The notes under the pieces were generated by a model that was given only the letters and a program-made list of their open reading frames with translations, was not told the origin of the DNA and made no database searches. The position numbers and the translations under genes were made by a program. A DNA stretch of 64,000 nt, taken from Roseibium sp. Sym1 (GTDB lineage: Bacteria > Pseudomonadota > Alphaproteobacteria > Rhizobiales > Stappiaceae). Below are positions 1 to 19,208 of this stretch, piece by piece. The stretch is from contig NZ_CP114786.1 in assembly GCF_027359675.1 (NCBI RefSeq), forward strand, positions 1,178,001-1,242,000, written 5' to 3'. Within the stretch, counting starts at the first letter, position 1; every line of letters starts with the position of its first letter.

Positions 1-443
1 GGGTTCGACATGTCCAGCTTCACGGTTTCAACGCGCCCAGGGATGTGGCCCTTCTCAAGCAAGCCGGCTACACGGTAATCAAGACACTTCACCTGAAGGA
101 TGACGGATCCTGTCTTGAGGAACGCTGGATCGAGGCCTACGCGAAGCTCGGCACAGATATTTTCCTGGCGGACAGGTACCAGGATCCGTCCAGGATCGGC
201 AGCACGGGCCAGCCTCTGCCGGACTCCGTTGCCGAAAAATGGATGGGTCGCCTCGCCGGACACCGCATCTGGCTGGCGGGCGGCCTGAATGTCGAACGCG
301 TCTCCCTGCTGTCGGAAGGTGGCCGGGTCGAAACAGCGGACATCGACACTGCCGCGCGGCACCTCGGCAAGATTGCCCGCAAGGCGAGCCGCCTGCTCGT
401 CACCGCCTCTCGGCCGGCCGGCCTGTTCAAGGAAACGGCATGA
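1..443 (+). CDS. trpF: TrpF-like phosphoribosylanthranilate isomerase, 5' end missing
   Basis: The reading frame is open from the first bases of the window, so the N-terminus, including the family's catalytic Cys, lies outside. The visible part begins with the TrpF strand motif VQLHG, has the D of the LLD-type motif (FLAD, family general acid Asp) and the LAGGLN motif. In the family it performs the Amadori rearrangement of N-(5-phosphoribosyl)anthranilate. The GGTG-x-x-FDW segment is altered to GSTGQPLPD and the C-terminal phosphate-binding SSGVE motif is not recognisable, so the substrate may differ. The stop overlaps the next start as ATGA. A GTG at 45 could be mistaken for the start, but homology continues upstream of it. 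The symbol denotes family only. Confidence 0.8.
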   Translation, partial: VRHVQLHGFNAPRDVALLKQAGYTVIKTLHLKDDGSCLEERWIEAYAKLGTDIFLADRYQDPSRIGSTGQPLPDSVAEKWMGRLAGHRIWLAGGLNVERVSLLSEGGRVETADIDTAARHLGKIARKASRLLVTASRPAGLFKETA

Positions 444-1231
444 CCGCCATGGCGCAGCTTCTCAAACGGCCGGACCCCGAAACGCGCAGTCTGTGCCCGC
501 TGATCATGGCTGGTGATCCTGATCTGCAGACAACCCGTTCCCTGCTGCAGGCATGCGTCGATCTGCGCATCGGCATGGTCGAACTCTGCGTCCCCTTTCA
601 CAGAGCTTTTACGGATGGTCCGACCTTGCAGCGTGCGCATGCCAGGGGCCTTGCCGCCGGAACGGACCTGGAAGCCGTCCTGGCCGTCATCCGCGATTTC
701 AGCCACAACATGGATATCGTCCTGCTCGCCGACTGTTCGCACACGCTCCTGCCCAACGGCTTTGCACCGGTATGCGAAAAAGCACGCGAGGCTGGTGCCG
801 CCGCTATCCTTCCGCACGGTCTTCCGCCCCGCCTCGCACCGGAATTCATCAGCGCCGCCAACGGAATGATCCCGGTTGTGGGAACCCTCTATGTAAATTC
901 CGCAGACGATGTCTGCCGCAAGGTTCTCGCGCACAGCAGCGCCTTCATCTATCTGGTTTCGGCCTATGGCCGGTCGGGAGGGCAGGCAGGGCCCGACGCC
1001 GGCCTTCGCCTGCGGATCACCGACCTCAAGCTGCGGACGCGCCTGCCGATCGCGCTCGGCTTCGGCCTCAAGACCCCCGCCAACGTCTCGGACGCCTTCT
1101 CGATGGGCTGCGACATAGCGATCGTCGGAAGCGCGGTATCGGCCGCGGTCGAAAGCGGAATCCGGACCGGCGACCCGGTGCGCCCGGCACGGGAACTCAT
1201 GGAAGCCCTGAACGCGGGCGTCCCGGCATGA
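440..1231 (+). CDS. trpA: TrpA-like tryptophan synthase alpha chain / indole-glycerol-phosphate lyase
   Basis: A 263-residue TIM barrel of normal TrpA length. The family cleaves indole-3-glycerol phosphate to indole and glyceraldehyde 3-phosphate. Visible motifs: LIMAGDP near residue 21, the catalytic Glu in VELCVPF, the catalytic Asp in TDGPTLQ, the Tyr in FIYLVS, GFG and VGSAV phosphate loops. The loop between the catalytic residues (usually SDPLA) is HRAF, and the usual SRSGVTG loop is SAYGRSGG. These are the two loops that contact TrpB in the alpha-beta complex. No trpB is in the window, so TrpB-independent lyase action, as in the plant BX1 type, is a reasonable inference. The start overlaps the trpF-like stop (ATGA), and the stop overlaps the AfsA-like start. 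Confidence 0.85.
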   Translation: MTAMAQLLKRPDPETRSLCPLIMAGDPDLQTTRSLLQACVDLRIGMVELCVPFHRAFTDGPTLQRAHARGLAAGTDLEAVLAVIRDFSHNMDIVLLADCSHTLLPNGFAPVCEKAREAGAAAILPHGLPPRLAPEFISAANGMIPVVGTLYVNSADDVCRKVLAHSSAFIYLVSAYGRSGGQAGPDAGLRLRITDLKLRTRLPIALGFGLKTPANVSDAFSMGCDIAIVGSAVSAAVESGIRTGDPVRPARELMEALNAGVPA

Positions 1232-2061
1232 CGGCTCTCGACCGGCGACAGGACCCGCGCAACCATGTCCTGAGAAACCTTGCCACCGACCGGCGGCTGA
1301 CGGCCGAACTGGTCGTGGACCGCCAGCATCCGTTTTTCTTCGATCACCCGCTCGACCACGTCCCGGGGCTGCTGCTCCTTGAGGGCGCGACACAGCTCGC
1401 GCAGTCGGATGCGCGACGCCCCCAATTCGTCGGTTCCGTCACCGCCCGGTTCGAGAAATACGCCCTGTTCAACGAAACGATTGACCTGAGCGCCGACAGG
1501 ACAGAGGCGAGCGGCCGCACGCGGTACGACGTCGCGCTGGCCCAAGATGGAAGGACCCGTGCGCATGTCAGCGTGGAACTGGTAGATTTCGACCGCGACT
1601 TTGCCGGCAGATGCGCTCGGCGGGCCGAGGTGCACCCCTGTCCGCCGGGTCCCTTGAACAAGTCGAACCCTGAGAATGTCCTGATTTCCGAACCGCAGGT
1701 GACGGCCTCCAGTGTCAGGGCGCACATCCTGTCCGCATCCGGAAACTGCCTGCTGACCGACAGCATCTGCACAGTCCACCCGCTGTTCATGCTGGAGTGT
1801 TTCATGCAGGTTCAGCGCTACCTCAACGCGCAGCACCCGGATCCTGGCCGCATGCGTGACATCCTCACGGGTGTCACGTTTTCGCAGATCCTGCCCGTTC
1901 GGGACAGTTCGCTGCCGATGACGGTCGAGGGCACCGCCGATTTCATGTTTTCCCAAAATGGAAGAGCTTCACGGACAGCGAACATTGCCGTCTGCGGCAG
2001 CACCTTCGCGCACTGCAGCATCCTCACCGCCCGGACCGGGATGCGCCGCAAATCCGCCTGA
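1228..2061 (+). CDS. AfsA-type double hotdog protein (gamma-butyrolactone synthase family)
   Basis: A 277-residue protein with two AfsA-type hotdog repeats. The first shows the signature HPFFFDHPLDHVPG followed by LLLLEGATQLA (about residues 34-60). The second shows VHPLFMLECFMQVQ (about residues 178-191). AfsA proteins of actinomycetes transfer a beta-ketoacyl chain from ACP to dihydroxyacetone phosphate to make butenolide/gamma-butyrolactone precursors. In this cluster, with a ketosynthase and a carrier protein, a similar transfer of a KS-made beta-ketoacyl unit to a small hydroxyl acceptor is plausible, but a dehydratase-like or structural role cannot be excluded. The ATG overlaps the TrpA-like stop as ATGA, implying translational coupling. 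Confidence 0.8.
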   Translation: MTALDRRQDPRNHVLRNLATDRRLTAELVVDRQHPFFFDHPLDHVPGLLLLEGATQLAQSDARRPQFVGSVTARFEKYALFNETIDLSADRTEASGRTRYDVALAQDGRTRAHVSVELVDFDRDFAGRCARRAEVHPCPPGPLNKSNPENVLISEPQVTASSVRAHILSASGNCLLTDSICTVHPLFMLECFMQVQRYLNAQHPDPGRMRDILTGVTFSQILPVRDSSLPMTVEGTADFMFSQNGRASRTANIAVCGSTFAHCSILTARTGMRRKSA

Positions 2062-2080
2062 ACAGATAGGAACCAGGATT

Positions 2081-3385
2081 ATGGAACCTGTACACATTAT
2101 TGGCGCCGGCATTTCGGGACTTGGCGCGGCCCACTACCTCTCCCGCAAGGGCATTCCATCGGTCATCCACGAGGCCGGACACAGCATTGGCGGCCGCGCC
2201 GGCTGCATCCGCAGCGGCGGCCATGCTTTCGAGGTCGGCGGCAAGAATTTCTCAACAGCCTGGCCACGATTTACCGCCCTGTTGACCGAATTCGGCCTGA
2301 ATGATTTTGAACCGCAGCACCCCGGTTTCCACATTGTCCTGAAAAACAGGCTGATCGCACTGGAAAAGAGCAAGACCCTTTCGGGTGACCTGCGTCTGGC
2401 AGCCCGCCTTGGATTGAAATCCGCGCTCCAGTTCAGGAGCTTCCTCGCCAAGGCCCGCGCCAATGCGGACCGGCTCAACTACACGTCCGGCCTGATCGAG
2501 GAAATCGAGCGTCGTTGGGATCATTCAACCATCGACAACCACTTCACCCGGACCCTCAGCGACGGTCCGCTCAGACTGTTCTCGATCATCATGGGTGCGG
2601 CGGAACCCGATGAACTCTACCCCTCGCTGCTGATGCTGTTTGCCTCGGGTTTCGGCAAAGGCGAGCACCGCGCGATACGCGGCGGCATCGGACGGCTGCA
2701 CGATTGCCTTGCACAAGGCAAGTCGATCCAGTTCGGCGAGCGGGTCGAACGCATCGTCACGGAAAACGGCCAGGTTGCCGGACTCGAGCTCGTTTCGCAG
2801 ACCGGGCAGCGCAGCAGGGTCACCGCGACGCGCGTTCTGTCCTGCGCGCCCCTTCACGTCCTGAAACGGATCGTTTGCCTGCCGGCCTATGCCCGTGTCG
2901 CGGCGGACGCCGTGCGGTATCATCCCCTGGCTCTGATCAACGCGGTCTACGATCAGGATGTGTTTCGCGACAATATCCACTCGATCATGTTTGACGCCGG
3001 TTCGCCGCTTGGACATTGCTCCGCAAACCGGCTGCACCAGCCCTATCACGTCCGCTTCACCCTGTCCGGCCGGGCGGCCCGTGACGTGCTGGACCAGGAC
3101 GACGACGCCCTGCTCGACCTTGCCGAGGCGGAGTTCTCGCGCCGCCTGCCGATCCGGGCCAACAGGACAAAGTGCCTCGTTACTCGCCACGAGGGCGGAA
3201 TTTGCGGCTATGCCCCGCATTTCAGCCGGGTGAAGCGGGATCTCCTGAGGGGGATCGAAACGATACAGGGCCTGGAAATCGCCGGCGACTATCTCGAGGG
3301 GCACACCATGGAAGGCTGCCTGACATCCGCGGACCTTGCGGTGCAGCGCTTCAACCTGGAAGAACCCAAGCGGGAGGCCGCATGA
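2081..3385 (+). CDS. FAD-dependent amine oxidase / protoporphyrinogen-oxidase-like enzyme
   Basis: A 434-residue flavoprotein. The N-terminal Rossmann motif IIGAGISGLGAAHYL (residues 5-19), the following acidic strand end (IHEAG) and the GGRAG motif are those of the amine oxidase/phytoene desaturase/HemY superfamily. The C-terminal FAD motif is GLEIAGDYLEGHTMEG. Substrate is unknown. In the cluster it probably oxidises an amine, an enamine or a C-C bond of the assembled product. Start at 2081 is chosen because it has AGG-type ribosome sites just upstream and places the Rossmann motif at the N-terminus. Its stop overlaps the exporter start as ATGA. Confidence 0.85.
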   Translation: MEPVHIIGAGISGLGAAHYLSRKGIPSVIHEAGHSIGGRAGCIRSGGHAFEVGGKNFSTAWPRFTALLTEFGLNDFEPQHPGFHIVLKNRLIALEKSKTLSGDLRLAARLGLKSALQFRSFLAKARANADRLNYTSGLIEEIERRWDHSTIDNHFTRTLSDGPLRLFSIIMGAAEPDELYPSLLMLFASGFGKGEHRAIRGGIGRLHDCLAQGKSIQFGERVERIVTENGQVAGLELVSQTGQRSRVTATRVLSCAPLHVLKRIVCLPAYARVAADAVRYHPLALINAVYDQDVFRDNIHSIMFDAGSPLGHCSANRLHQPYHVRFTLSGRAARDVLDQDDDALLDLAEAEFSRRLPIRANRTKCLVTRHEGGICGYAPHFSRVKRDLLRGIETIQGLEIAGDYLEGHTMEGCLTSADLAVQRFNLEEPKREAA

Positions 3386-4554
3386 TGTCCGCCGCGGCTT
3401 CCGGGCTGCGCGCACCCTTGATCCTGGCGGCGGGCGCGATGACGGTGATGAGCGGTGCGGCGATCGCCCCGGCTCTTGGCGAACTGCACCTCGCCCTGAC
3501 GTCTGGAGGCGGAAAGGGGATCGACAGGTTCGTTCTGATCCTGCCGGCGATCGTCGTTCTGTTCGCGGGCCCGCTGATCGGCCGGATGTCCTCCTGGATT
3601 TCACCCCGCATCGTTCTGTGCTTCAGGTTGGCGCTGCTTGCGGTTGCCGGCGCCCTGGGTGGCCTGGCGAATTCCTACGGCTGGCTCTTGGTCACGCGCG
3701 GCCTGCTCGGCGTGGCGACGGCGATCGTGCTCTGTTCGGCAACCGCCGCCATCGTCCGCTTCTTCGAGGGGCCGGCCAGAGGCCGCATGATGTCCGCGCA
3801 GACCGCCTGCAATACGCTCTCCGGGGTGGTTTTCATTGTCTGCGGCGGGCTTCTGGCAACGCTGAGCTGGCGATTGGCCTTCGCGATCTACCTGTTAGCC
3901 GTGCCTGTCGCAATTCTTGCCTGGCGCCTGGACTGGGGTGATGTCCTTGAGGCTCCGGCCAAGCAGCATGGCGGCGCCGGAATTCAAGACGATCTGCCGA
4001 TGCTCGGCATGATCGTGCTCGCAATGGGGTGTTTTTACCTATTGCCCACCCAGGTGCCCTTTCTTCAAGGTGTCCTGGCGGGCCCGGCCGAGGCCGCACT
4101 TGCAATTGCCGGCGGAACGCTGGCGAGCGCCCCATGTGCGATGCTGGCCCCGAAACTGTCACGGCTTCTCGGCCGCAGGAACATGATGGCATCCGGCGCT
4201 GGTGCCATGGCGCTCGGCAATCTGTTGATGACCCTGGCGGACGGCCCGCTGGCCGCGACGCTGGCGGCCGTTCTTGTCGGCAGCGGGTTTGGCCTGATCC
4301 TGCCGCTCGCCATCCTTGTTGTGATGGGCCGGACCGGGGCCCCCGACCGGGAAGCAAAATCGGGCTGGGTTGCGTCGGCAATCTACTGCGGACAGGTCTT
4401 TGCGGTTGTCCTCGCCACGAGCGCCGCAAGCTGGGGAAACACCGTCCCCTTCGCGATTTCTGCAGGTATTCTCGCCGGAGGTCTGGTTGTCGCACTGCTC
4501 GCGATCTGGGTGCGGCGGCTGGGCGTCAATGCGCGTTCCCAGATCGGTGACTGA
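3382..4554 (+). CDS. MFS transporter, probable product exporter
   Basis: A 390-residue polytopic membrane protein with about 12 hydrophobic segments and the arrangement of major facilitator superfamily proteins (N-half with a GPLIGRMSSWI loop resembling motif A between TM2 and TM3, a polar central loop near residues 190-205, and a second six-helix half). Being the last gene of the plus-strand biosynthetic operon and translationally coupled to the flavoenzyme (ATGA), it most likely exports the product or provides self-resistance. The specificity cannot be read from sequence. Confidence 0.88.
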   Translation: MMSAAASGLRAPLILAAGAMTVMSGAAIAPALGELHLALTSGGGKGIDRFVLILPAIVVLFAGPLIGRMSSWISPRIVLCFRLALLAVAGALGGLANSYGWLLVTRGLLGVATAIVLCSATAAIVRFFEGPARGRMMSAQTACNTLSGVVFIVCGGLLATLSWRLAFAIYLLAVPVAILAWRLDWGDVLEAPAKQHGGAGIQDDLPMLGMIVLAMGCFYLLPTQVPFLQGVLAGPAEAALAIAGGTLASAPCAMLAPKLSRLLGRRNMMASGAGAMALGNLLMTLADGPLAATLAAVLVGSGFGLILPLAILVVMGRTGAPDREAKSGWVASAIYCGQVFAVVLATSAASWGNTVPFAISAGILAGGLVVALLAIWVRRLGVNARSQIGD

Positions 4555-4648
4555 CACGCACGACAACCGGCATCTCATCTGATGGCGCTGTTCCGGTTCG
4601 CCAGCCCGGACAAGGCCGCCTCAGACTGCGGCACCGGCTTCTTCAATC

Positions 4649-5089
4649 CTATGCTCCGGTTGCTCCGGGCAACCGCAGCACATCCGAAATCCTGCAAAAG
4701 TGACGGGACACCACCTGGATCGTGGTGAGGATCGTATCGACGGGGACCGGCAGCTGGGCACAGTGATCGGCGCCTGCCGCAAACAGTTCCAATCGCTGCT
4801 CGAGGTCCAGCCCCCGATGCAAAATGATGATTGGAATGACCTGGCTGATCCGGCGCACGGTGCGGCAGATCGCGGAACTGTGTTCAAAGGAAACCGTTTC
4901 CGAGATGAGCACGGCTGTCGCGGTGGCGTTGCGCACCATGTCGGCAACGTCCTTCAGCCCCCGTTTCTGAAACACGATGTATCCCCGCGTTTCCAGCGAG
5001 GATCGCAGGGTCGTGCAATCCGACGGCGCGTTTACCGCGATGGCAATAAGCTCCGTGCCGATCTTCGGCCGGTGGGGAATGGAGCTCAT
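4649..5089 (-). CDS. Stand-alone degenerate response-regulator receiver-like protein
   Basis: A 146-residue protein whose second half follows a CheY-type receiver pattern (IPIIILHRGLDLEQRLEL, then FAAGADHCAQLPVPVDTILT, compare PIIxLSA...GADDYLxKPF). The position of the phosphoacceptor Asp (after the third strand) reads TAVLISETVS, with no Asp, and the conserved Lys of strand 5 is replaced (QLP instead of xKP). No output domain follows. It is therefore likely a pseudo-receiver that cannot be phosphorylated in the usual way. It is the last gene of the minus biosynthetic operon and starts inside the TrpC-like stop (ATGA), so it is co-produced with the pathway. The role could be ligand sensing or protein-protein regulation. 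Assignment is moderate because the N-terminal half is divergent. Confidence 0.65.
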   Translation of the reverse strand: MSSIPHRPKIGTELIAIAVNAPSDCTTLRSSLETRGYIVFQKRGLKDVADMVRNATATAVLISETVSFEHSSAICRTVRRISQVIPIIILHRGLDLEQRLELFAAGADHCAQLPVPVDTILTTIQVVSRHFCRISDVLRLPGATGA

Positions 5090-5796
5090 GAAGCCGGTGC
5101 TCTGGCCTGCGCCATGGCATCCATGAACAGTCCTGCGGTATTGCCCGGACCGTTGTCGCCATTCATGAATGCGGTGCCGACCAGAATGCCGTCAAAACCG
5201 CACATGCAGGCTTTCCGGGCATCCGCCGGGGTCCGGAATCCGCTCGCGCTGACCAAAAGCCCGGCATGCCGGGCCCTGGCGCTGCGGTAGAGCGCAAGGC
5301 TGTGTTCAACGCCGCCATCGTCGGTTTCCCGGACGCGGATGTTCCGGTTGTTGATCGCCAACACCGATCCGCCCGGCAAGTCCAGCCCGTCAAGCTCGGT
5401 TTCGTTCGCGGCCTCGACAAAAGGTGTCAGGCCAAGATCCAGAGCCATTGCAGCGAGCCGGACAACATCCTTGTTGCGCAGCAGCGAACAGGTGAGCAGA
5501 ACGGCCGACGCACCGGCCTGAAGGCTGTCCCGCAGATGCCGGGCGGACACGATGAAATCCTTGCGCAGAACCGGCAATCCGGTTTCGGCGATTTCCCTGA
5601 TCATGCCGACGGAGCCGTTGTGCCACCTGCCGGTCGTGACCGACAGGCACGCGACACCCGCACGGGCATAATCCCGCGCGATTTCGCCGACCTGCATCTG
5701 CCTCAGAAGGTCGCCATCCTTCGGTGAGGCAGGTTTTATTTCCGCGATCAACGGCGCCTCGGCGCGAGCCAGCGCTGCGGCAAATTCAAGTTTCAA
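5086..5796 (-). CDS. trpC: TrpC-like indole-3-glycerol-phosphate synthase
   Basis: A 236-residue TIM barrel; IGPS normally has about 20-30 more N-terminal residues. In the family it cyclises and decarboxylates CdRP to indole-3-glycerol phosphate. Motifs: AEIKPASPKDG (Glu51/Lys53 of the S. solfataricus enzyme), LRKDFI (Lys110, general acid), FVEAAN (Glu159, base), INNRN (Asn180 region), SASG (Ser211 kept, preceding Glu210 replaced by Ala) and ILVGTAFM. Almost all catalytic residues are kept, so ring closure with decarboxylation is likely. The start is a TTG whose bases overlap the TrpD-like stop (TTGA). A longer frame upstream would overlap trpD by about 140 bases and lacks homology. The symbol denotes family. 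Confidence 0.87.
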   Translation of the reverse strand: MKLEFAAALARAEAPLIAEIKPASPKDGDLLRQMQVGEIARDYARAGVACLSVTTGRWHNGSVGMIREIAETGLPVLRKDFIVSARHLRDSLQAGASAVLLTCSLLRNKDVVRLAAMALDLGLTPFVEAANETELDGLDLPGGSVLAINNRNIRVRETDDGGVEHSLALYRSARARHAGLLVSASGFRTPADARKACMCGFDGILVGTAFMNGDNGPGNTAGLFMDAMAQARAPAS

Positions 5797-6836
5797 GCGA
5801 CATGCCTCCCGGTTCCGGTTCGGGCCTGCACAAGGTCTCGTGCGTCGGCGAGTTTCCGCAGCGCCGATCCACTTCTGAGGGCTTCCTGCGCCAGATCGAG
5901 CCCTTCCCGCAGCGTTCCCGCCTCGCCGCCGATGCAAAGAACCGCAGCCGCATTGAGCGCAACGGTCGCCGTCGCTTCCGCGGGGCCTTCGTTTGCGAGA
6001 ACCGCCTGAAGCAGCGCCGCATTGTGTTCAAGCTCCCCGCCGGCGAGCATCCCGACGCGCCCGGGCGGCAGGCCGAGGTCTCGCGGGTCCAGAAGGTCAG
6101 GCTCGCTTTTCCCCGGCCAGGCGAGCCGCACCGGTCCGACCGACACGAGTTCGTCGACCCCGCACAGGGCGTGCGCCGTCAAAACGACCCGGTCCGTCTC
6201 CGCCGCTGTCCGGCGGACAATGTCGAAAAGATCCGGTGAAGAGGTTCCCACCACGGCTCCCCGCGTCCTGTAGGGGCAGATCAACGGTCCGAGGGCATTG
6301 ACGAAACGGCCGATCATCTTGAAGGGCAGCGGCATCGCCGCCACCGCAAGCCTCCGGCAGAGCGGCGCATAGACCGATGCGTCGGCAAAGCCGATCCCGA
6401 TCGTCTCAAGATCTTCCGCCAAAGCATCGTGCGAGTGCGCCTTGCCGAGCCCCAGCGCCTTCAGAACGTCGGACGAACCGACCCGGCTGGAGTAGGCGGG
6501 GGACCCGGACTTCAGAACCGTAGCCCCGCATGCCGCCGCGACAAATGCCGCCGTCGTGGAAATGTTGAATGTGGCGGGACCGCCGCCGGTGCCAACGATG
6601 TTCACCGCCTTGTGCGACACCGGCAGGTCGATCCGGGGATAGGCCACGTCGAGATAGCGAACGAACGCAAGCACCCTTTCAAAGGTGAACGGGGCGGCCG
6701 AGAGCGCGGCAAGAACGGCAATGGTTTCCTGTTTCGGCCGCAGCCCCCCATCGGTTTCGCGCCAATAGTCCACCATGGCGTCGATCCCGGGTGTTTGGCC
6801 GGCGACAAGCGCGGCAGCAATCGCGTCTTGGGACAT
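5793..6836 (-). CDS. trpD: TrpD-like phosphoribosyltransferase with altered acceptor site
   Basis: A 347-residue member of the anthranilate phosphoribosyltransferase family. The PRPP/Mg region is intact: NIVGTGGG (residues 79-86), FNISTTAA, and SSRVGSSDVLKALG. ALGPL and GVDEL also align with the family. However, the acceptor-binding KHGNR motif is KSGSP, and the RREIG-type segment before xFNxLGPL has lost both arginines (PLPFKMIGRFVNALGPL). His, Asn and Arg at these places bind anthranilate in characterised TrpD enzymes. I infer transfer of phosphoribose to a different amine. It has a strong ribosome site (GGGAGGGAG). It lies between the carrier protein and the TrpC-like gene in the same operon. 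Confidence 0.87.
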   Translation of the reverse strand: MSQDAIAAALVAGQTPGIDAMVDYWRETDGGLRPKQETIAVLAALSAAPFTFERVLAFVRYLDVAYPRIDLPVSHKAVNIVGTGGGPATFNISTTAAFVAAACGATVLKSGSPAYSSRVGSSDVLKALGLGKAHSHDALAEDLETIGIGFADASVYAPLCRRLAVAAMPLPFKMIGRFVNALGPLICPYRTRGAVVGTSSPDLFDIVRRTAAETDRVVLTAHALCGVDELVSVGPVRLAWPGKSEPDLLDPRDLGLPPGRVGMLAGGELEHNAALLQAVLANEGPAEATATVALNAAAVLCIGGEAGTLREGLDLAQEALRSGSALRKLADARDLVQARTGTGRHVA

Positions 6837-6857
6837 GTCTCCCTCCCGGTTGCCGGA

Positions 6858-7115
6858 TCAGGCAGGCGCTGTCTGGACTTTTGCCGACAGCAGCGAACCG
6901 ATGGAACTCAGGGACTTGTAGAGATCCACGTCCAGTTCTTCCGGCGCAATCGCCAAGCCCATCTCGTCCTCGAGAAACGCAACCAGTTTCAGCACGCCGA
7001 GACTGTCAATAATGCCGCTTTCGATGAGATCGAGGTCGTCCGGCAGGTCTGCAGGTTTGATGTCGGGAGCAAATTCTGTGGTGATGAACTCGCGGATTAC
7101 GGTCAGGCTGGTCAT
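6858..7115 (-). CDS. Free-standing acyl/peptidyl carrier protein
   Basis: An 85-residue acidic carrier protein with the phosphopantetheine attachment Ser in SGIIDSLGVLKLVAFLE (about residues 34-50), the D/LFDxGLIDSxG pattern typical of PltL/DltC-like carriers that work with stand-alone adenylation enzymes. It sits directly downstream of the adenylation gene (21 bases), which probably loads it. The start is placed at the ATG preceded by GGAGA at 7-nt spacing. A TTG four codons upstream overlaps the ribosome site and is rejected. Confidence 0.92.
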   Translation of the reverse strand: MTSLTVIREFITTEFAPDIKPADLPDDLDLIESGIIDSLGVLKLVAFLEDEMGLAIAPEELDVDLYKSLSSIGSLLSAKVQTAPA

Positions 7116-7136
7116 CTTGGTCTCCAATATTCGTTG

Positions 7137-8651
7137 TTAGGCGGTCTGGACCGCAGCCTCGAAATAGGAGGCAGCGATAGTCTTCCGGCAGATCTTGCCG
7201 TTGGAATTCTTGGGAAGCGGATCCGGCGTGAGGCAAAAGGATTTCGGGATCGCATAGGCGGGCAGCGCCTGCATGGCATGCAGGCGCAGAGCCACGCTGT
7301 TCACCTGCAACTCGTTACCGGAGAGCACCGCGGCAAGCTGACCGTTGGGACCGACGAACACGGCATTTTCGCGCACGCCCGGATGTCGCGACAGGCACGC
7401 CTCGATTTCGGCAAGGTCGATACGGTAGCCGTTGACCTTTCGCACGCTGTCGATGCGTCCCAGAATATAGACAAGACCGTCTTCCCCGGTTCGAACCCGG
7501 TCACCGGTCCGGTAAAAGGTCCGCCCCTCGAAGGTGCCGGTCGCGCGGGCCGTCAGGTCCGGGTCCGAATATCCGATCATCATGGTCGGGCAGCGCACCC
7601 ATAGCTCCCCCTCCTCTCCCGCGGGAACCGGATGTCCGTTGTCCGCCATGACAACGTGGTCCGTGTAGGGCAGCGGCCGGCCGAGCGGCAGCGGATCGGG
7701 ACTTCCCGCCGCGGGAACATCGTAGAAGAAAGTGTCGTTCGTCTCCGTGCAGCCGTAGATGTTTGTCAGCCGTGCGTTGGGAAACACCTGGGCAAGCAAG
7801 CTGAGACGGGATGCCGGCATTGGTTCGCCCGCGAACAGAACACAGCGCACCAGTGGAAACGTCCGCCCGCCCGCTGCGTCCGCGATCAATCCCAGCGCAG
7901 ACGGTGTCGCATGCAGGAAGGTCACCCGGGTTTCGGCGATCAGCCGGCACAGCCGTGCTCCGCTGCGGGCCGCGGCCGCGTCTGCCAGAACCACGGACGC
8001 TCCCGCCGCCAGGCCGGCAAAGATATCCAGAAAGGACAGGTCGAAGGCCAATGGCGCATGGCTGAGCAACACGTCCGCAGGTGTCAGGCTGAATTCGGAA
8101 CGGACCCAGTCGCAGAACACCGAAATCGCGTTCGCGCCGATACGCACCTGCTTTGGCACACCGGTCGAACCGGACGTGTGCAGAACGGCCGCACATTCGC
8201 CCGCAACCTGGCCGCACCCCGAACCGGTGGAAAGGTTTGCGGGCACAAGTGGCAGGAGCGGAACGTCCGCGCGCGCGGCCCAGGTGTCGATCTTGTCGCG
8301 CGCAGCCATGTCGACAAGGATCGCGGCCGGTTGAAGTCTTTCGAGAATGTCTGTCCAGCGACGCGCGGGATGCGTCGGGTCAAGGGGGGAGTAGGCCCTG
8401 CCGGCATGCAGAACACCGAGTATCGCCGAGACTGCCGCAGGCTGTTTCTGGGTGCAAATGGCAACCGGCCCCGGGGCGGTGCCCGCAATCATGGCGCTCA
8501 CGGCAAGAGCCTCGTCTCGAATCCTGGAAAAGGGCACAGCGTCCGCCGCGCCTTCGACCCGTCCGGGTGCCCAGGCCTCGAGACGGTCCATCAGCCGTGC
8601 GGCCAGGGTCTGCGGCGTCATGGGCGCATTTGCTGTGGCCGCTTGAAACAT
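7137..8651 (-). CDS. Stand-alone amino acid adenylation enzyme
   Basis: A 504-residue ANL-superfamily enzyme with core motifs LHTSGSTGVPK (A3), NIYGCTET (A5), YRTGDR (A7), GRIDSVRKVNGYRIDLAEIE (A8) and the A10 Lys in NSNGKICRK. It should activate an amino acid as AMP ester and load the adjacent carrier protein. Aligning by hand to PheA, the pocket residues read D-L-L-H-L-A-I-D-T-K. The start D-L-L and the L-A resemble the RedM/PltF proline code, but His, Ile, Asp and Thr differ. The Asp near the pocket end may indicate a basic or hydroxylated side chain. The start is fixed by a strong GGGAGGAGG site 2 bases before ATG; the frame upstream is not homologous. Confidence 0.9.
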   Translation of the reverse strand: MFQAATANAPMTPQTLAARLMDRLEAWAPGRVEGAADAVPFSRIRDEALAVSAMIAGTAPGPVAICTQKQPAAVSAILGVLHAGRAYSPLDPTHPARRWTDILERLQPAAILVDMAARDKIDTWAARADVPLLPLVPANLSTGSGCGQVAGECAAVLHTSGSTGVPKQVRIGANAISVFCDWVRSEFSLTPADVLLSHAPLAFDLSFLDIFAGLAAGASVVLADAAAARSGARLCRLIAETRVTFLHATPSALGLIADAAGGRTFPLVRCVLFAGEPMPASRLSLLAQVFPNARLTNIYGCTETNDTFFYDVPAAGSPDPLPLGRPLPYTDHVVMADNGHPVPAGEEGELWVRCPTMMIGYSDPDLTARATGTFEGRTFYRTGDRVRTGEDGLVYILGRIDSVRKVNGYRIDLAEIEACLSRHPGVRENAVFVGPNGQLAAVLSGNELQVNSVALRLHAMQALPAYAIPKSFCLTPDPLPKNSNGKICRKTIAASYFEAAVQTA

Positions 8652-8661
8652 GGCCTCCTCC

Positions 8662-9834
8662 CTAAAGCCCCAGCATCGCGGCGATGCGATTGCGCTGGAT
8701 ATCCGACGTCCCTGAATAGATGAGACCGCCCACCGCATTGCGCAGACCTGCCTCGATGCCCGTTTCGGCCATGTATCCGGCGCCGCCGAACAGCGTGATC
8801 GCATCCAGCGAGTTGGCGACATTTGCTTCGGAAATCGCCAGTTTGGCCGCGGCAATATCGAGCGAGGCCCGACCACCGCCACCGATGGCCTCGACCGCGC
8901 GCTGCAGCCAGTTGCGCGAGGTTTCCACCCGAAGGTGCATATTCGCGATACGGTGCGAGACCGCCTGATAGCTGCCGATTGAACTCCCGAACTGCTGCCG
9001 GGATTTCGCATGTTCGATGCACCGCTGCAGTTGGGTCTGCATCTCTCCGATCTGCAATGCGAAGATGCAGATGATTTCCCACTTCATGACGTAGTCGAGG
9101 ATCGAGTAACCCTGCCCCTCGCGTCCGATACGGTCCGATTCGCCGATCCGGACCTCGTCAAAGTGCATGTCCGCCATGGGGGCCGTTCTGAGTCCGAGCT
9201 TGCGGCGCGGCTTGCCAATCGTGACCTCGTCCGCGGCACAATTCACCAGAAGTGCGCTGAACCCTCCCAGGGCGCCCTTTTGCGGATCGGTTCTTGCGTA
9301 AACAACGCAGAAATCCGCAATCGGGGCGTTGGAGATAAAGCACTTCTCGCCTTTCAGAAGATACTTGTCCCCTTCCCGGGCTGCCGTCGTCTTCATGGCG
9401 AAGGCATCGGACCCGCTATCAGGCTCCGTGATGGCATGCGCACCGATCAAGCTGCCCGCGGCAAGCCCCGGCAAAAGCCTTTCCTGAAGCTCCGGGCCGG
9501 CGAATTTCGCGATCGGGATACAGGTGCTGCAGAAATGGCTGGCCAGAGTGAACCCGAGACCACTGTCCGGGCAGAGCCGGCCGAAGCAAAGCAGCACTTC
9601 GGCAAGTTCGGTGGCGCTCAACTCCAGGCCGCCAAAGTCCTCCGGCACTGTCAGCGCGGTCAGTCCGGCATCGCACAACGCCTGCCACCGGTCCGGATCG
9701 AACCGTCCGTCCTGGTCGTCGTCGATCCAGTCGCGGTTCAACGTCTCCGCCCAACGCTCCAGTCCCGCGCAAAGATCCGCGACCAGGTCCGTTCTGTGGG
9801 GCGTGTTTGCGGTTTTGGTCAGCAAAACGGTCAT
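8662..9834 (-). CDS. Acyl-CoA-dehydrogenase-type flavoenzyme, probably acting on carrier-bound aminoacyl
   Basis: A 390-residue acyl-CoA dehydrogenase fold: N-terminal helical domain, FAD-binding AITEPDSGSDA (about residue 135) and C-terminal IYSGTSDIQRNRIA. The Glu usually found before GTS is Ser here. Instead a Glu in KWEIICIFALQIGEMQ aligns with the helix-G catalytic Glu of isovaleryl-CoA dehydrogenase. Together with the adjacent adenylation and carrier genes this resembles prolyl-carrier dehydrogenases (PltE/RedW type) that oxidise a thioester-bound amino acid, here of unknown identity. Its ATG overlaps the ketosynthase stop (ATGA). Confidence 0.9.
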   Translation of the reverse strand: MTVLLTKTANTPHRTDLVADLCAGLERWAETLNRDWIDDDQDGRFDPDRWQALCDAGLTALTVPEDFGGLELSATELAEVLLCFGRLCPDSGLGFTLASHFCSTCIPIAKFAGPELQERLLPGLAAGSLIGAHAITEPDSGSDAFAMKTTAAREGDKYLLKGEKCFISNAPIADFCVVYARTDPQKGALGGFSALLVNCAADEVTIGKPRRKLGLRTAPMADMHFDEVRIGESDRIGREGQGYSILDYVMKWEIICIFALQIGEMQTQLQRCIEHAKSRQQFGSSIGSYQAVSHRIANMHLRVETSRNWLQRAVEAIGGGGRASLDIAAAKLAISEANVANSLDAITLFGGAGYMAETGIEAGLRNAVGGLIYSGTSDIQRNRIAAMLGL

Positions 9835-11081
9835 GAAAGATCTAGCCCCTGTGCCTGGAAGAGAAGGCTGCAGTTGATGCCGCCGAAACCGAGCGAGTTG
9901 CTCATGGCGAAATTTCCAATGAATTTTTCCGGCCGGTCGGGGCCGGGCATCGGAAACCCTGTCTCCTCCGGCGTCGCGGTGGTCTTCATCGCCGGCGCCG
10001 TTCCGGTGCGCAGGGCAAGCACGGTGATCAGCGCCTCGATGGCGCCGGCGCTACCGAGCAGATGCCCCGTTGCCCCCTTGGTGGAACTGATCACCGGGCG
10101 CTTCTTGGAATCTGCGAAAATCCGGTTCAGCGCTTCAGTCTCGGCCTTGTCGTTAACGGGGGTACCGGTCCCGTGGCAGTTGATGTAGCCGATGGCTTCG
10201 GGCGCGATGCCCGACCTTTGCAGGGCCTGGCTCATCGCCTGGGACAGTCCGTCCGGACTGGGATGCGTGATGTGATGCGCATCGATGCTCAGACCAACAT
10301 CGATCAGATACGCAATCGGCTCGACGCCCCTCTTTCGGGCGTGGGCCTCGTCTTCAAGCAGCAGCATCGCTGCGCCGTCGCCGATAACCATGCCACGCCG
10401 CCCCTTGTCGAAGGGCCTGCAGCTTTCCTTGTCCATTGCCCTGAGGGCATTGAACCCCGCATAGTCTGCCGCCCGCATCCGGTCGGACCCGCCGACCAGC
10501 ATCATCGGAGCGTCTCCGCTCCTGACGCGGGAAAAGGCATAGGAGATTGCCAGCGACGAACTCGCGCAAGCGCAGGAGAAATTGGCGAATGGGCCGTCGA
10601 GACCAAAGGTCCGTGCCAGGATGCTCGCGGACGCGGCGGGCAAAGCGGCATCCAGATAACCGCTGTCCTGCTCTTGCAGGCGGCTGTCATCCGCAAGACT
10701 GTCGAGGAACAGATCCATCAGTCCGCCGCTGGTCGTCGCCAGCGCGATCCCGCAGGAGCTGGTGTCTCCTCCGAGCACACCGGCGCTTTCCAGTGCTTCG
10801 GCCGCAGCCAGCAGGCCGTTGGCCGCGCATTCCAGTTCGGCCTCCGGCAGCATTGGCAGGCCGTACCGGTCCAGACAGCCGGCAAGTGCTGCGCGGACGG
10901 CGTCCGGATGCGTCGCATAGGCCTTCTTGGCCCGGAAGGGTTCCGTGTCGAAATGGACCGGCCTGTTCGGGAGTCCGCCGCCGGCCATGAGCCAGCGGGT
11001 AAATGCCGGTACGCCAATGGCATCACGTACCACGACTCCAAGCCCGGTAATGGCGACGCCGGATTTCAAGTTCGTCTCCAT
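9831..11081 (-). CDS. Beta-ketoacyl-ACP synthase (FabF/type II KS)
   Basis: A 416-residue condensing enzyme with the complete C-H-H triad: Cys in FSCACASSSL (about residue 165), His in NCHGTGTP (about 300), Lys and His in SSTKGATGHLLGSAGA (about 335). The C-terminal NSLGFGGIN is the usual FabF ending. It should perform decarboxylative Claisen condensation on carrier-bound substrates. No malonyl transferase, ketoreductase or second carrier is in the window, so malonyl-ACP may come from primary metabolism or the single carrier is used. It follows the KS-like gene by 3 bases. Confidence 0.93.
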   Translation of the reverse strand: METNLKSGVAITGLGVVVRDAIGVPAFTRWLMAGGGLPNRPVHFDTEPFRAKKAYATHPDAVRAALAGCLDRYGLPMLPEAELECAANGLLAAAEALESAGVLGGDTSSCGIALATTSGGLMDLFLDSLADDSRLQEQDSGYLDAALPAASASILARTFGLDGPFANFSCACASSSLAISYAFSRVRSGDAPMMLVGGSDRMRAADYAGFNALRAMDKESCRPFDKGRRGMVIGDGAAMLLLEDEAHARKRGVEPIAYLIDVGLSIDAHHITHPSPDGLSQAMSQALQRSGIAPEAIGYINCHGTGTPVNDKAETEALNRIFADSKKRPVISSTKGATGHLLGSAGAIEALITVLALRTGTAPAMKTTATPEETGFPMPGPDRPEKFIGNFAMSNSLGFGGINCSLLFQAQGLDLS

Positions 11082-11084: not shown

Positions 11085-12053
11085 CTAGTGCAGCCTGATA
11101 CCGGCGGCGATACCACCGGTAAGCGGATCGCAGGCCCCGACCATCCAGTGCCGGGGCGTTGTCTTGTCTTGCAGCAGGCTTCCGCCCCCCAGCAGCTGGG
11201 CAAGCTCCACCAGGCCGCTTGCGCCGATACATTCTCCCGCGTCCAGGCTGGAAGCCGGATTGCACCGGTCACGAAAATCCGCCGGGCTGCGGCTGACTGC
11301 AAATCCGAACTCCGGCAAATCGCGACCGAAGAGGCGCTTACCGACCGAGCCGCAATTTCCGGACACGCGGTTGAGGATGGCAGTCCCCGTGAGGTCGGCC
11401 AGCGCGGTCAGGCCGCGGGCCTCCGCCAGCTCCTTTCGCTCCAGCATTAGGCAGACCATGGCTTCGAACACGGGGCCGGACTGCGTGGCTGTCCTGCGGA
11501 TATGATCGTCGACCGGCGAACCGAAATCCTCGAACGCGGTCACGACCACACGGTCGCAGCGCCGATCCAGCAACCAGTCGCATGCGCATTGAAAGGCTTC
11601 CATGCCTGCGGCCCGGGAACTGACCATTGCCGTGCATGGTCCCTTGAACCCGAACTCGATCGCGCAGCACGAGACCGGGTAATTATGCGTTGCCTGCGCA
11701 AACCGGATGGCGTCAATTCCCTTTGGACCGTACCTGGCCAGGCGCCGGTGCATGTCGAACACGATTGAACAGCCGTACCGGGACCCGGACACCAGGCCCG
11801 TTGCGGCCCCCGCCGCCGCCTCCTTCGACAGGGCCGCGTTTGACAACAGCTTAGTCACAAGCTGTGACATTCGGAACGACACCGGCGTATGCCGCTGCCG
11901 CTCCCTTTTCCTGTGTGCCTCGAAGGCACCGCGATCCAGCCGGATCAAAGAAAAATCGCCAAGGGACTCGTCCGGCGCCTGCAGTCCGGGCGGGAGGCTC
12001 TTCTCGTCTGCAAGATCCATTGCAATTGCTGAAATCACTATGGAAGCTTTCAT
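11085..12053 (-). CDS. KS-like protein without catalytic Cys (chain-length-factor-like)
   Basis: A 322-residue protein with thiolase-fold features of ketosynthases: an N-terminal strand KASIVISAIA, a nucleophile-elbow region AMVSSRAAGMEAF, and GECIGASGLVELAQLL near the C-terminus. At the position of the active Cys there is Arg or Ser, and the two catalytic His motifs are absent. It is shorter than a KS (about 400). By position just before a complete KS it is likely its heterodimer partner, like KS-beta/CLF of type II PKSs or the small KS-like partners of other clusters. ATG at 12053 is preceded by GGGGAT. The frame extends 33 codons further upstream without homology. Confidence 0.78.
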   Translation of the reverse strand: MKASIVISAIAMDLADEKSLPPGLQAPDESLGDFSLIRLDRGAFEAHRKRERQRHTPVSFRMSQLVTKLLSNAALSKEAAAGAATGLVSGSRYGCSIVFDMHRRLARYGPKGIDAIRFAQATHNYPVSCCAIEFGFKGPCTAMVSSRAAGMEAFQCACDWLLDRRCDRVVVTAFEDFGSPVDDHIRRTATQSGPVFEAMVCLMLERKELAEARGLTALADLTGTAILNRVSGNCGSVGKRLFGRDLPEFGFAVSRSPADFRDRCNPASSLDAGECIGASGLVELAQLLGGGSLLQDKTTPRHWMVGACDPLTGGIAAGIRLH

Positions 12054-12084: not shown

Positions 12085-12465
12085 TCAGTAAGCAGAACTC
12101 TCGGCTCCGAGACTGTGTCTTTCAGGTCCCTGCAGAGGCGGATTGAAGACACACACCAGACGCATGGTCTTGTCGGCCTTCAGCACATGCTTTTCGTGAT
12201 TGTCCAGCGCATACATGGTCCCGGGAGTGATCCGGTGAACCGCCCCGGTGACCTGGTCAATGACCTCGCCCTCGCCCTCGATGCAATAACAAGCCTCCAG
12301 GTGGTTCCTGTATTCAAGCAGCGAAGACGTGCCCGCCTCAACGATGGTATCGGTGAGGGAATACCCCATACGATCGGATTCAAGCAGCAGTCGCCGGCTT
12401 TGACCATTGCCCCAGGCGACATCACGATCAGTATTCGACAACGAATCGATAGATTTAATGATCAT
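12085..12465 (-). CDS. ectC: EctC-like cupin (ectoine synthase family)
   Basis: A 126-residue cupin closely following ectoine synthase along its length, with LEYRNHLEACYCIEGEGEV (metal-ligand Glu), PGTMYALDNHEKH (metal-ligand Tyr and His) and MRLVCVFNPPLQG. EctC closes N-gamma-acetyl-diaminobutyrate to the cyclic amidine ectoine. No ectA, ectB or ectD is nearby. As first gene of the biosynthetic minus operon it probably performs an analogous cyclising dehydration on a pathway intermediate, or makes a 2,4-diaminobutyrate-derived unit. The symbol denotes family; osmoprotection is less likely from context. Confidence 0.85.
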   Translation of the reverse strand: MIIKSIDSLSNTDRDVAWGNGQSRRLLLESDRMGYSLTDTIVEAGTSSLLEYRNHLEACYCIEGEGEVIDQVTGAVHRITPGTMYALDNHEKHVLKADKTMRLVCVFNPPLQGPERHSLGAESSAY

Positions 12466-12764: not shown

Positions 12765-13436
12765 TCAACCGGTCCGCGCGACCGCATCCTGTTTCAGCGA
12801 TCCGGACAGGAACCTCGTGGAACTGGCAAACAGCTCGCCGTGTTTTTCCCGCATGCCTTCCAGGATCATGCTGTGGGGCAGGTCGTCGAATTCACCGTGA
12901 TCCCGCAGGATTTCCATATGGAGATGCCCGTTTTCGTCGAAGGGATGATGCAGGCTGTCGCGATATCCGTCGAATTCCAGAGGTGTCATCCGGAAGAGCT
13001 GGCACAGGCGCTTGTTGAACACCGGTGTCGACTTGATCCATCTTCCATCGAGCTGCAGGGCCACCAGGCAGTGATAATGAAAAACGGTGTCTCCCATGAT
13101 GCGGGACAGGCGTTCGGAACAAAGGTGGTTGCGGACGTCAGTCAGCCAAAGCCGCGAAGGAATGCCGATCTTGCGAAGCAGCGTGGCATATACAATGGAC
13201 TTGTGTATGCACAAGCCGGCTCCCTTCCGCAAAATCGCGCTCGCCTTCATGCCGGATTGAGAGAAATCCGCATCGTAGATCTCGTAGAACAGCTTGTCCC
13301 GGACGGCATAGTAAAGCTCGACGGCACGTGTCCGCTTGTCCGCACCGGTATCACTCACATTGTTTTCGACAAACCGTGATATCTCGGGCGCGGAAAAATC
13401 AAAAAACGAGGTTTCTGCAAGAGTCGATTTTGTCAT
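12765..13436 (-). CDS. Transglutaminase-like (papain-fold) protein
   Basis: A 223-residue protein with the transglutaminase-like core: the nucleophile Cys in KGAGLCIHKSIVYATLLRKI (residues about 72-91), followed by GIPSRLW and a His in FHYHCLVALQLDGRW. The third triad residue is unclear (WIKSTP instead of the usual W-x-x-x-D). The family includes proteases, cross-linkers and, in the andrimid pathway (AdmF), an amide-bond-forming enzyme acting on carrier-bound acyl groups. Being next to a biosynthetic cluster, amide formation is possible; a regulatory protease is the alternative. It starts inside the histidine kinase 3' end (38-base overlap) with GAGG upstream. A longer upstream frame is not homologous. 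Confidence 0.75.
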   Translation of the reverse strand: MTKSTLAETSFFDFSAPEISRFVENNVSDTGADKRTRAVELYYAVRDKLFYEIYDADFSQSGMKASAILRKGAGLCIHKSIVYATLLRKIGIPSRLWLTDVRNHLCSERLSRIMGDTVFHYHCLVALQLDGRWIKSTPVFNKRLCQLFRMTPLEFDGYRDSLHHPFDENGHLHMEILRDHGEFDDLPHSMILEGMREKHGELFASSTRFLSGSLKQDAVARTG

Positions 13437-14745: not shown

Positions 14746-15429
14746 CTAGACCCTGCTGTAAACGAGGCGATAACCGCGGCCGCGCACCGTGAGGATGAGA
14801 TCATCCGGGGACCCTGCCAGCCGGAACTTCCGGCGCAGCCTGTAGACGATCGTATCTATGATCGCCGGATCGCTGTATTCGGAATGGCGGATACGCTCCA
14901 GAATCTGCAACCGGCTGAGAACGTTTCCCTTTGCGTCTGACAGCGCTTTCAGGATCTGTATCTCCAGATCTGTGAGATCGACCGTGAAACGGTCGTGACT
15001 TGCCACCATCCGGGTCTCATCGATGACGACCGCGGCCGGGAGCTCCGGTTTTCCTGACGGAGCCGGCCAGCGCTTCACCGCCCGGATGCGGGCGACCAAC
15101 TCCCTGAGTTCGACGGGTTTGGCAATGTAGTCGTCCACGCCGCTTTCCAGGCCGACGATCCGGTCGGTCAGTTCGGCACGCGCGGACAATGCGATGATGG
15201 GAATGTCCCGCTTCGGAAAGTCCGATGACCGGATTTCATGACAGACGGTCATTCCGTCCATCTCCGGCAGCATCATGTCGAGCAGCACAACATCGGGACC
15301 ACAACTGGCGAGCATTTCCAATCCCTTTTGCGGTGTCTCAGCCTGCACGAGCGATATTCCGTATTTTTCAAGTACCGGCTTCATGGCGTCTCCCAGCTCA
15401 ACATCGTCATCGATCATCAGTACTTTCAA
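14746..15429 (-). CDS. OmpR/PhoB-type response regulator
   Basis: A 227-residue regulator with an intact receiver (acidic pair IDDD at residues 6-9, phosphoacceptor Asp in VVLLDMMLPEMDG, Lys in YIAKPVEL) and a C-terminal winged helix (LTDLEIQILKALSD to YRLRRKFRLAG and VRGRGYRL). It is the partner of the adjacent kinase. It starts with TTG, preceded by AAGGAAGG at suitable spacing; the second in-frame ATG is four codons later and would cut into the first strand. Its likely targets are the promoters of its own operon and of the biosynthetic operon. Confidence 0.94.
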   Translation of the reverse strand: MKVLMIDDDVELGDAMKPVLEKYGISLVQAETPQKGLEMLASCGPDVVLLDMMLPEMDGMTVCHEIRSSDFPKRDIPIIALSARAELTDRIVGLESGVDDYIAKPVELRELVARIRAVKRWPAPSGKPELPAAVVIDETRMVASHDRFTVDLTDLEIQILKALSDAKGNVLSRLQILERIRHSEYSDPAIIDTIVYRLRRKFRLAGSPDDLILTVRGRGYRLVYSRV

Positions 15430-17773: not shown

Positions 17774-17804
17774 TTCCGATTCTCCTTTCCTGGTGCGGAC
17801 CTGC

Positions 17805-19196: not shown

Positions 19197-19208
19197 GATA
19201 CGCAGCCT

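Follow-up and report, generated by a model that had tools for sequence, protein, structure and literature searches.

Homologues of four tryptophan enzymes in a Roseibium biosynthetic cluster and their probable place in a kosinostatin-type module

Gene content of the locus

The stretch of DNA analyzed here, called the window throughout, comprises 64,000 nucleotides from the 7.26 Mb genome of Roseibium sp. Sym1 (contig NZ_CP114786.1; C1:1178001-1242000 in genome G000). At its left end are genes for homologues of the tryptophan enzymes TrpD, TrpF, TrpC and TrpA, together with a carrier protein (CP), a stand-alone adenylation (A) enzyme, a flavoenzyme of the acyl-CoA-dehydrogenase type (ACAD) and a cupin resembling the ectoine synthase EctC. 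The results presented below suggest that these genes probably form a module of the kosinostatin type that builds a fused two-ring amidine on the carrier protein, and that the module is set among the biosynthetic and export genes of a Gram-negative cluster.

The genes lie in two operons that converge at ~4.55-4.65 kb. The plus-strand operon encodes, in order, the TrpF-like protein, the TrpA-like protein, an AfsA-like hotdog protein, a flavoenzyme of the amine-oxidase type and a major facilitator superfamily (MFS) transporter. The long minus-strand run, read leftwards from ~19.9 kb, begins with an ATP-binding cassette (ABC) ATPase, an FtsX permease, a LolA-like protein, an outer-membrane-type protein, a response regulator and a sensor kinase, and continues with a transglutaminase-like protein, the EctC-like cupin, a ketosynthase (KS)-like partner, a KS, the ACAD, the A enzyme, the CP, the TrpD- and TrpC-like proteins and a receiver-like protein, so that TrpD-TrpC are close to its end. 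To the left of TrpF are LolA-like and MMPL genes on the minus strand. An initial annotation, made from the window sequence, had described the four Trp homologues as split between two convergent operons with a carrier protein, an adenylation enzyme, a flavoenzyme, ketosynthases and an AfsA-type protein, and Pfam matches bear this out. It had overlooked the ectoine-synthase homologue, which we think is the key to the identity of the TrpD acceptor.

Primary copies of the tryptophan genes are present elsewhere in the genome: trpF at C1:1645728, trpA at C1:1641137, trpB at C1:1644475, trpC at C1:4844717, trpD at C1:4845542 and a trpE-type gene at C1:5556537. This removes the possibility that the cluster copies are the only, and hence primary, Trp enzymes of the organism. 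Against the protein families the cluster copies score far below the primary ones (for TrpF, 46.9 compared with 158.8 bits).

A conserved cassette in several phyla

A protein search with the cluster TrpD gave 69 hits at E 1e-40, one of them the query from the window itself and several carrying the names of Rhodobacterales genera. With a profile made from 34 of these and the protein of the window (35 rows), named genomes were scanned once and the best 80 loci were taken; more exist. Sorting by tblastn with 16 window proteins divided them into 43 with a CP homologue and 37 that resemble primary trpD loci. The 43 loci reveal a conserved cassette consisting of A, CP, TrpD, TrpA, EctC-like, ACAD, TrpF and TrpC, with hosts among the Rhodobacterales, Azospirillum, gammaproteobacteria, Desulfosudis and many actinomycetes. 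In these loci A was found 41 times (once, in L037, as a different protein from the cassette enzyme), EctC 41 times (L017 and L049 are without it), TrpC 41, ACAD 39, TrpF 39 and TrpA 36 times. Less regular companions are the first KS (23 loci, many at ~30% identity and with KS types unsorted), the second KS (11), the amine oxidase (9) and AfsA (6). Across the 37 primary loci there is no EctC, CP or ACAD, and A and TrpF homologues occur at one locus each; TrpC (32) and TrpA (26) are common there, as is expected of trp operons. Since EctC accompanies CP and TrpD at 41 of 43 loci and primary trpD at none of 37, the cassette is not a chance association.

Searches of whole genomes for TrpA were carried out for the seven cassette loci without it and for L017. 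In five of the seven (L014, L015, L037, L041, L088) a TrpA of 40-55% identity is encoded elsewhere; L017 gave a match of 36%, L049 only matches of 25-26%, and L019, a metagenome-assembled genome, none. Comparison of 18 loci shows that the gene set is stable and that gene order varies between phyla. The cassette also occurs on plasmids. An unannotated stretch of Streptomyces clavuligerus pSCL4 (L130) has homologues of all eight members, and in Aliiroseovarius crassostreae TrpD is found on 8 plasmids, which make up 8 of the 9 plasmid records matching at E 1e-25; in the plasmid that was read, the whole cluster is contained in one stretch. A class-wide search of 385 genomes with the TrpD profile placed only the window's own protein clearly above the rest (496 bits, the next being 233), and below ~240 bits distant cassette TrpD and primary TrpD could not be told apart by this profile. 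No Gram-negative cassette appeared among the titles and abstract openings listed from the open-licence PMC literature, one listing covering 30 of 145 papers.

The initial annotation had proposed that these proteins are distinct from primary Trp enzymes, and phylogeny agrees. In quick trees, made with no bootstrap and rooted at the midpoint, the cassette copies of TrpA (37 cassette and 27 primary rows), TrpC (42 and 33) and TrpD (44 and 37) each form one separate clade on one side of a branch whose support in the Shimodaira-Hasegawa-like approximate likelihood ratio test (SH-aLRT) is 100. With this root, the deepest cassette split in TrpD isolates four rows, from gammaproteobacteria and Desulfosudis, and the actinomycete copies are nested in a wider proteobacterial spread. 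To judge from these sequence trees, the cassette is of one origin.

Residues kept and changed in the Trp-like enzymes

Cassette and primary TrpD, TrpF, TrpC and TrpA are alike in family and core catalytic residues, and differ in a TrpD motif, in three extra TrpD columns near the Arg site, in one TrpC residue and in the TrpA partner loop. The alignments contain the locus rows and the window, leaving out rows below 60% of the length, and the roles of the residues are those that we take them to have in the model enzymes. The metal-binding DE of TrpD is kept in 44/44 cassette rows, as are the equivalents of TrpC Glu51, Lys53, Lys110 and Glu159 in 42/42 (Asn180 in 36/42), the catalytic Cys and Asp of TrpF in 40/40 (with only 2 primary rows for comparison) and the equivalents of TrpA Glu49 and Asp60 in 37/37.

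The KHGN motif of TrpD belongs to the anthranilate side of the enzyme. It reads KSGS in the window and K(S/T)G(S/A) in the cassette generally: the His is replaced by Ser or Thr in 44/44 cassette rows and is kept in 37/37 primary rows, and the Asn is replaced by Ser (43/44) or Ala (1/44), compared with Asn in 33/37 primary rows. Three columns near the Arg in contact with the carboxylate of anthranilate are filled in the cassette and gapped in 36-37 of the 37 primary rows. Loss of this Arg itself was considered as a further change and rejected, because Lys or Arg occupies the position in 44/44 cassette rows. The equivalent of TrpC Glu210 is Ala in 41/42 cassette rows and Pro in the other, and Glu in 31/33 primary rows. 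In TrpA, Ser55 and Pro57 of the loop that contacts TrpB are present in 0/37 cassette and 27/27 primary rows, and Asp56 in 14/37 cassette rows. Two earlier proposals are thus upheld: residues on the acceptor side of TrpD and in the partner loop of TrpA are changed with most catalytic residues kept, and the acceptor is unlikely to be anthranilate, given the loss of both His and Asn from KHGN.

Relation to the kosinostatin module

One of the cassette loci, L085, is from Nocardiopsis alkaliphila YIM 80379 and encodes homologues of A, CP, TrpD, TrpA, EctC, ACAD, the transglutaminase-like protein, TrpF and TrpC, with protein identities to the window of ~32-60%. Its contig also carries a pair of KS and chain-length factor (CLF) genes, and genes for nucleoside-diphosphate (NDP) sugars (deoxysugar) and glycosyltransferase. 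PMC7918784 lists Nocardiopsis alkaliphila among the holders of an almost complete kosinostatin cluster. At this locus the eight-member set, with the transglutaminase-like protein, is what the window shares with the kosinostatin (kst/ksn) module known from Micromonospora, Nocardiopsis and Streptomyces. The TrpD, TrpC and TrpA of L085 fall in the same clades as the window's proteins, which gives these common ancestry with the copies in a published kosinostatin cluster. We are confident that the module is the same.

According to passages in PMC7918784, which draw on Ma et al. 2013, the kstB genes are responsible for the loading of nicotinic acid and its conversion to a pyrrole, and the kstC genes make a pyrrolopyrrole from the pyrrole and phosphoribosyl pyrophosphate (PRPP). 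Disruption of ksnC3, a homologue of phosphoribosylanthranilate isomerase (PRAI), is reported in PMC13099267 to abolish kosinostatin; that source also describes the nonribosomal peptide synthetase (NRPS) module as commoner than the whole kosinostatin cluster in a screen of Actinomycetota genomes. Because of the route proposed in 2013 and the ksnC3 result, the principle of a shadow tryptophan pathway was already known, and the suggestion in the initial annotation of a new route to a pyrrole-type ring is not supported: related enzymes with the same A, CP, ACAD and EctC partners are found in a kosinostatin cluster. What is new here is the Gram-negative setting, with its KS/CLF-like pair, AfsA-like protein and envelope transporters, together with hints as to the precursor. 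In comparison with the full kosinostatin (quinocycline) cluster, the Roseibium cluster has this KS/CLF-like pair, the AfsA-like protein, an amine oxidase, the MMPL/LolA/ABC set and a two-component system, whereas deoxysugar (deoxy-octose), aromatase/cyclase and aromatic polyketide tailoring families were absent among the proteins scanned in L003, the extracted region that covers the cluster's left flank, and in window positions 1-20000, some open reading frames (ORFs) being unscanned.

Evidence bearing on the precursor

The pocket of the A enzyme was read from a 40-row alignment, in which the window's protein is joined by those of 39 of the 41 loci (the L037 row is not a cassette enzyme). For the window the ten classical positions give DLLHLAIDTK; most of the other rows follow D-L-L-Q-x-T-x-D-S-K. 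Asp stands at position 235 in 39/39 cassette enzymes and at position 330 in 37, the other 2 having Asn there, and the A5 motif, YGx(T/S)ETN, is of the amino-acid type. Such a pocket reads as proline-type with Asp330 rather than as aryl-acid type. For stand-alone A enzymes that use L-proline, PMC3874040 gives L(L/F)YLALVC as the residues flanked by the fixed D and K; Val330 contacts proline in the CcbC homology model presented there.

The ACAD is nearest to dehydrogenases of prolyl carrier proteins: among PDB structures 5zw0 was the best match and 4irn the fourth, and the protein scored 362.9 bits against NCBIfam PigA (cut-off 500) and 341.6 against RedW (cut-off 650), both under the equivalog cut-offs. 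Prolyl carriers are converted to pyrrolyl carriers by the gene sets PltF/PltL/PltE, PigI/PigG/PigA and RedM/RedO/RedW. As in these systems, the cassette has a stand-alone A enzyme, a separate CP and a flavin dehydrogenase, and its A pocket is close to LLYLALVC; it differs in Val330 to Asp, in Cys331 to Ser or Thr, in the subthreshold dehydrogenase scores and in the additional EctC and Trp-like enzymes.

The EctC-like protein is in the same cupin family as ectoine synthase and keeps its iron ligands (Glu57, Tyr and His; 42/42), with Tyr52, Thr40 and Arg25 also kept; the roles of these residues, and of the substrate-site residues Trp21 and Asn38, are those given in PMC6344544. Ectoine synthesis was rejected as its function, there being no second EctC in the window's genome and no ectA or ectB families among the scanned neighbours, neither of which was searched for genome-wide. 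Passages in PMC6344544 and PMC5924519 describe a side reaction in which H. elongata EctC converts glutamine to 5-amino-3,4-dihydro-2H-pyrrole-2-carboxylate (ADPC).

It was of interest to look at A domains beside EctC genes outside the cassette. A search for EctC genes on plasmids gave 118 records; of the 40 listed, 11 stretches were examined, of which 4 are cassettes (Aliiroseovarius, two Streptomyces records and S. clavuligerus) and 7 are not. In Rhizobium gallicum (L120/L124) and Mycetohabitans endofungorum (L121/L125) an EctC of the cassette sequence type adjoins a polyketide synthase (PKS) or NRPS whose first A domain reads DIHYTANDV and DIHYIAHDV, respectively; both codes are proline-like and resemble VQ(Y/F)IAHVV, the proline code of modular enzymes, but have Asp330. 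The EctC proteins of Paraburkholderia sabiae and Agrobacterium vitis are of a different sequence type from that of the cassette. As separate observations, the solitary EctC gene of a Gloeothece verrucosa plasmid (L119) has a fatty acid desaturase gene on one side and genes for a GNAT protein and a Trp 7-halogenase on the other, and the solitary EctC genes of Rhizobium etli (L129) and Sinorhizobium meliloti (L126) are near biotin-carboxylase-type annotations, with a lysine 2,3-aminomutase also present in R. etli.

A final line of evidence is provided by UbiD-type decarboxylases. In a chosen set of 37 sequences, such a gene accompanies the cassette at 8 other loci (L011, L013, where it is cut by the locus end, L024, L030, L042, L078, L137 and L135, the source of the query). 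A UbiD enzyme that acts on pyrrole-2-carboxylate is reported in PMC7976604, and the association of UbiD with the cassette fits a carboxylated pyrrole.

A pathway and its alternatives

Based on the proline-like A pocket with Asp330, the prolyl-type ACAD, the ability of EctC to form ADPC from glutamine and the UbiD association, we infer that glutamine, by way of ADPC, may be the precursor, and give this an even chance. In such a pathway the EctC-like cupin would close glutamine, free or carrier-bound, to ADPC, a proline-like cyclic amidine, which the A enzyme and CP would hold as a thioester. The ACAD would then aromatize the ring to 5-aminopyrrole-2-carbonyl-CP. TrpD would attach the phosphoribose of PRPP at the exocyclic amine, TrpF would give the ketose, TrpC would close the second pyrrole ring and TrpA would release glyceraldehyde 3-phosphate to leave a pyrrolo[2,3-b]pyrrole. 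The bicycle might later pass to the KS/CLF-like pair and tailoring enzymes, with possible decarboxylation by UbiD, and the product would be exported by the MMPL/LolA/ABC set. The order of these steps is guessed. It is fairly likely that the unit produced is a pyrrolopyrrole or a close analogue. The loss of CO2 at the TrpC step, which the initial annotation had assumed, is uncertain because the likely acceptor may have no ortho carboxylate.

A wider interpretation, which we offer tentatively and rate as somewhat below an even chance when all of its parts are taken together, is that orphan EctC proteins are ADPC synthases that serve natural-product pathways, that the proline-type A domains which recognize their product acquired Asp330 more than once, and that the Trp-like enzymes build a ribose-derived pyrrole onto an aminopyrrole without decarboxylation. 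Glutamine would then be the source, the module would be widespread in Gram-negatives and actinomycetes and would predate kosinostatin, and the nicotinic acid origin would be wrong.

Several points weigh against the glutamine pathway. No product of a Gram-negative cassette is known to us. The EctC substrate site is altered relative to ectoine synthase, Trp21 being Gly in 42/42 rows and Asn38 being Thr in 41/42 (Gly and Thr in the window). Asp330 is absent from two of the four A enzymes that adjoin a non-cassette EctC, those of Paraburkholderia sabiae (first A domain DVQFYAQVV, proline-like with Val330) and Agrobacterium vitis (pocket unclear), and no A domain is annotated near EctC in the Gloeothece, Sinorhizobium and R. 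etli stretches. Some of the 43 cassette stretches are without one or another member (A 2, EctC 2, ACAD 4, TrpF 4, TrpC 2, TrpA 7). The basic residue at the Arg site of TrpD leaves room for an acceptor that bears a carboxylate. The glutamine reaction of EctC is described in PMC5924519 as very inefficient and reversible, with an equilibrium towards glutamine, and passages in PMC7918784, PMC5321127 and PMC8400222 name nicotinic acid, not glutamine, as the kosinostatin precursor.

The published precursor is the most serious alternative. The same module would load nicotinic acid on A and CP and convert it to a pyrrole-type acid, on which the Trp-like enzymes would act with loss of CO2. The abstract of Ma et al. 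2013 reportedly agrees with the later accounts of this route. Citations of that work in PMC7918784 (Table 5), PMC5321127 and PMC8400222 support it, as does the Lys or Arg retained at the carboxylate-contact position of TrpD. However, Asp235 and the amino-acid-type A5 motif set the cassette A enzyme apart from aryl-acid enzymes such as DhbE, which according to PMC11253843 have no conserved Asp235 and a different A5 motif. The common code of DhbE and MxcE, reported or assumed acceptors of nicotinic acid, is PLPAQGVVNK (PMC8400222), which is not that of the cassette pocket. In addition, the ACAD resembles prolyl-carrier dehydrogenases and the conserved set includes no obvious ring-contracting enzyme. 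We consider a nicotinic acid origin unlikely.

A second alternative arises from genes outside the window. The statement in the initial annotation that TrpB and TrpE are not visible is correct for the window and fails beyond it, since genes for TrpE-like (L003:9022-10626), TrpG-like (8417-9178) and TrpB-like (6792-7991) proteins lie ~8-12 kb to the left of its start (C1 ~1165.8-1169.6 kb), beside a UbiD gene. The group (L003:5368-10626, C1:1164.4-1169.6 kb) includes a full UbiD, and UbiX and a regulator also lie to the left of the cluster. With TrpD/F/C/A it could form a full second pathway to an anthranilate-derived indole or tryptophan analogue. The TrpE-like protein may have come with the cluster, since 36 genomes of the same genus gave no match to it at E 1e-60. 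Of 24 genomes from other genera, 16 match its C-terminal half at 40-44%, as an ordinary TrpE would. None of the curated cut-offs listed is reached by the TrpE-like protein (340 of 512 bits at best), while the TrpB-like protein passes its own (514 of 392). Against this pathway, the three proteins were found only at their own place among the 37 chosen sequences, which have limited flanks, and none is annotated in two stretches around the Aliiroseovarius cluster. The loss of His and Asn of KHGN from cassette TrpD (44/44 rows) and of Ser55 and Pro57 from the TrpA partner loop also argues against it. An indole product is thus improbable and was rejected. Finally, that the cluster genes are backup copies of the primary tryptophan genes with no special role, as their shared families and largely intact catalytic residues might suggest, is so improbable that it was dismissed, for they form one clade across phyla apart from the primary copies, nearly always travel with A, CP, EctC and ACAD, and coexist with a primary set.

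If the kosinostatin-type module is as proposed, a ring-building route known from an actinomycete antibiotic is carried as a module by members of several phyla, and its Gram-negative version, coupled to other assembly and export genes, probably makes unknown products. The function of solitary EctC, called unsettled in a passage of PMC5924519, and the nicotinic acid origin of the pyrrolopyrrole both become directly testable questions.

Genes around the module and probable acquisition of the cluster

The features are collected in Table 1. Inspected by eye, the CLF-like partner lacks a Cys at the active position, both in the window and at 10 loci. Homologues of the outer-membrane-type protein are present in L010-L014, L016, L050, L030 and L078, with a weaker one in L015. 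An ORF of 93 residues at 12487-12768 was rejected as probably no gene; it matched nothing in Pfam, nor by tblastn at any of the 43 cassette and 37 primary loci.

Table 1. Features of the cluster in window coordinates
Feature	Position	Strand	Evidence and remarks
TrpF-like isomerase (3' part)	1..443	+	Start at C1:1177778, 223 bases left of window; Pfam PRAI 2.1e-12, first 207 residues
TrpA-like lyase	449..1231	+	Pfam 2.1e-33
AfsA-type hotdog protein	1228..2061	+	Pfam AfsA 1.2e-13; ScbA_BarX under cut-off
FAD amine-oxidase-type flavoenzyme	2081..3385	+	Pfam Amino_oxidase 2.4e-30
MFS transporter	3382..4554	+	Pfam MFS_1 9.6e-27
Small receiver-like protein	4649..5089	-	Weak response-regulator-type matches; overlaps TrpC gene; homologues at 5/43 cassette loci
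TrpC-like synthase	5086..5796	-	Pfam IGPS 1.3e-40
TrpD-like phosphoribosyltransferase	5793..6836	-	Pfam 6.7e-45
Carrier protein (CP)	6858..7127	-	Pfam PP-binding 2.9e-05
Stand-alone adenylation enzyme (A)	7137..8651	-	Start set after ACAD stop (scans used 7137-8711); Pfam 4.7e-55
Acyl-CoA-dehydrogenase-type flavoenzyme (ACAD)	8662..9834	-	Nearest prolyl-carrier-protein dehydrogenases
Ketosynthase, Cys-His-His intact	9831..11081	-	Pfam; triad in window and 23/23 aligned loci
CLF-like ketosynthase partner without active Cys	11085..12053	-	Start assigned here; Pfam ketoacyl-synt 1.3e-09
Ectoine-synthase-like cupin (EctC-type)	12085..12465	-	PF06339, 1.4e-46
Transglutaminase-like protein	12765..13436	-	Start assigned here (ORF extends to 13610); Pfam 2e-11; 19/43 cassette loci
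Sensor kinase and response regulator pair	13399..15429	-	Pfam; adjoins cassette in 7 Rhodobacterales loci
Predicted outer-membrane-type protein	15465..16970	-	Label assigned here; no Pfam match
LolA-like protein, FtsX-type permease, ABC ATPase	16970..19940	-	Pfam; homologues in L015, L030, L078; like-named genes in L118

Seven Rhodobacterales loci share the sensor kinase, the regulator and the outer-membrane-type protein with the window, and six of these also share LolA and MMPL. Of 61 genomes searched for AfsA, only the one that holds the window gave a match, and 0 of 36 of the same genus did so; the cluster was therefore probably acquired. Beside MMPL, at L003:14318-14854, are decayed pieces of a UbiD gene, where a longer gene is found in Aliiroseovarius and other relatives. 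A gene for a transposase of the IS481 type is located near the left edge of the region, at L003:886-1713.

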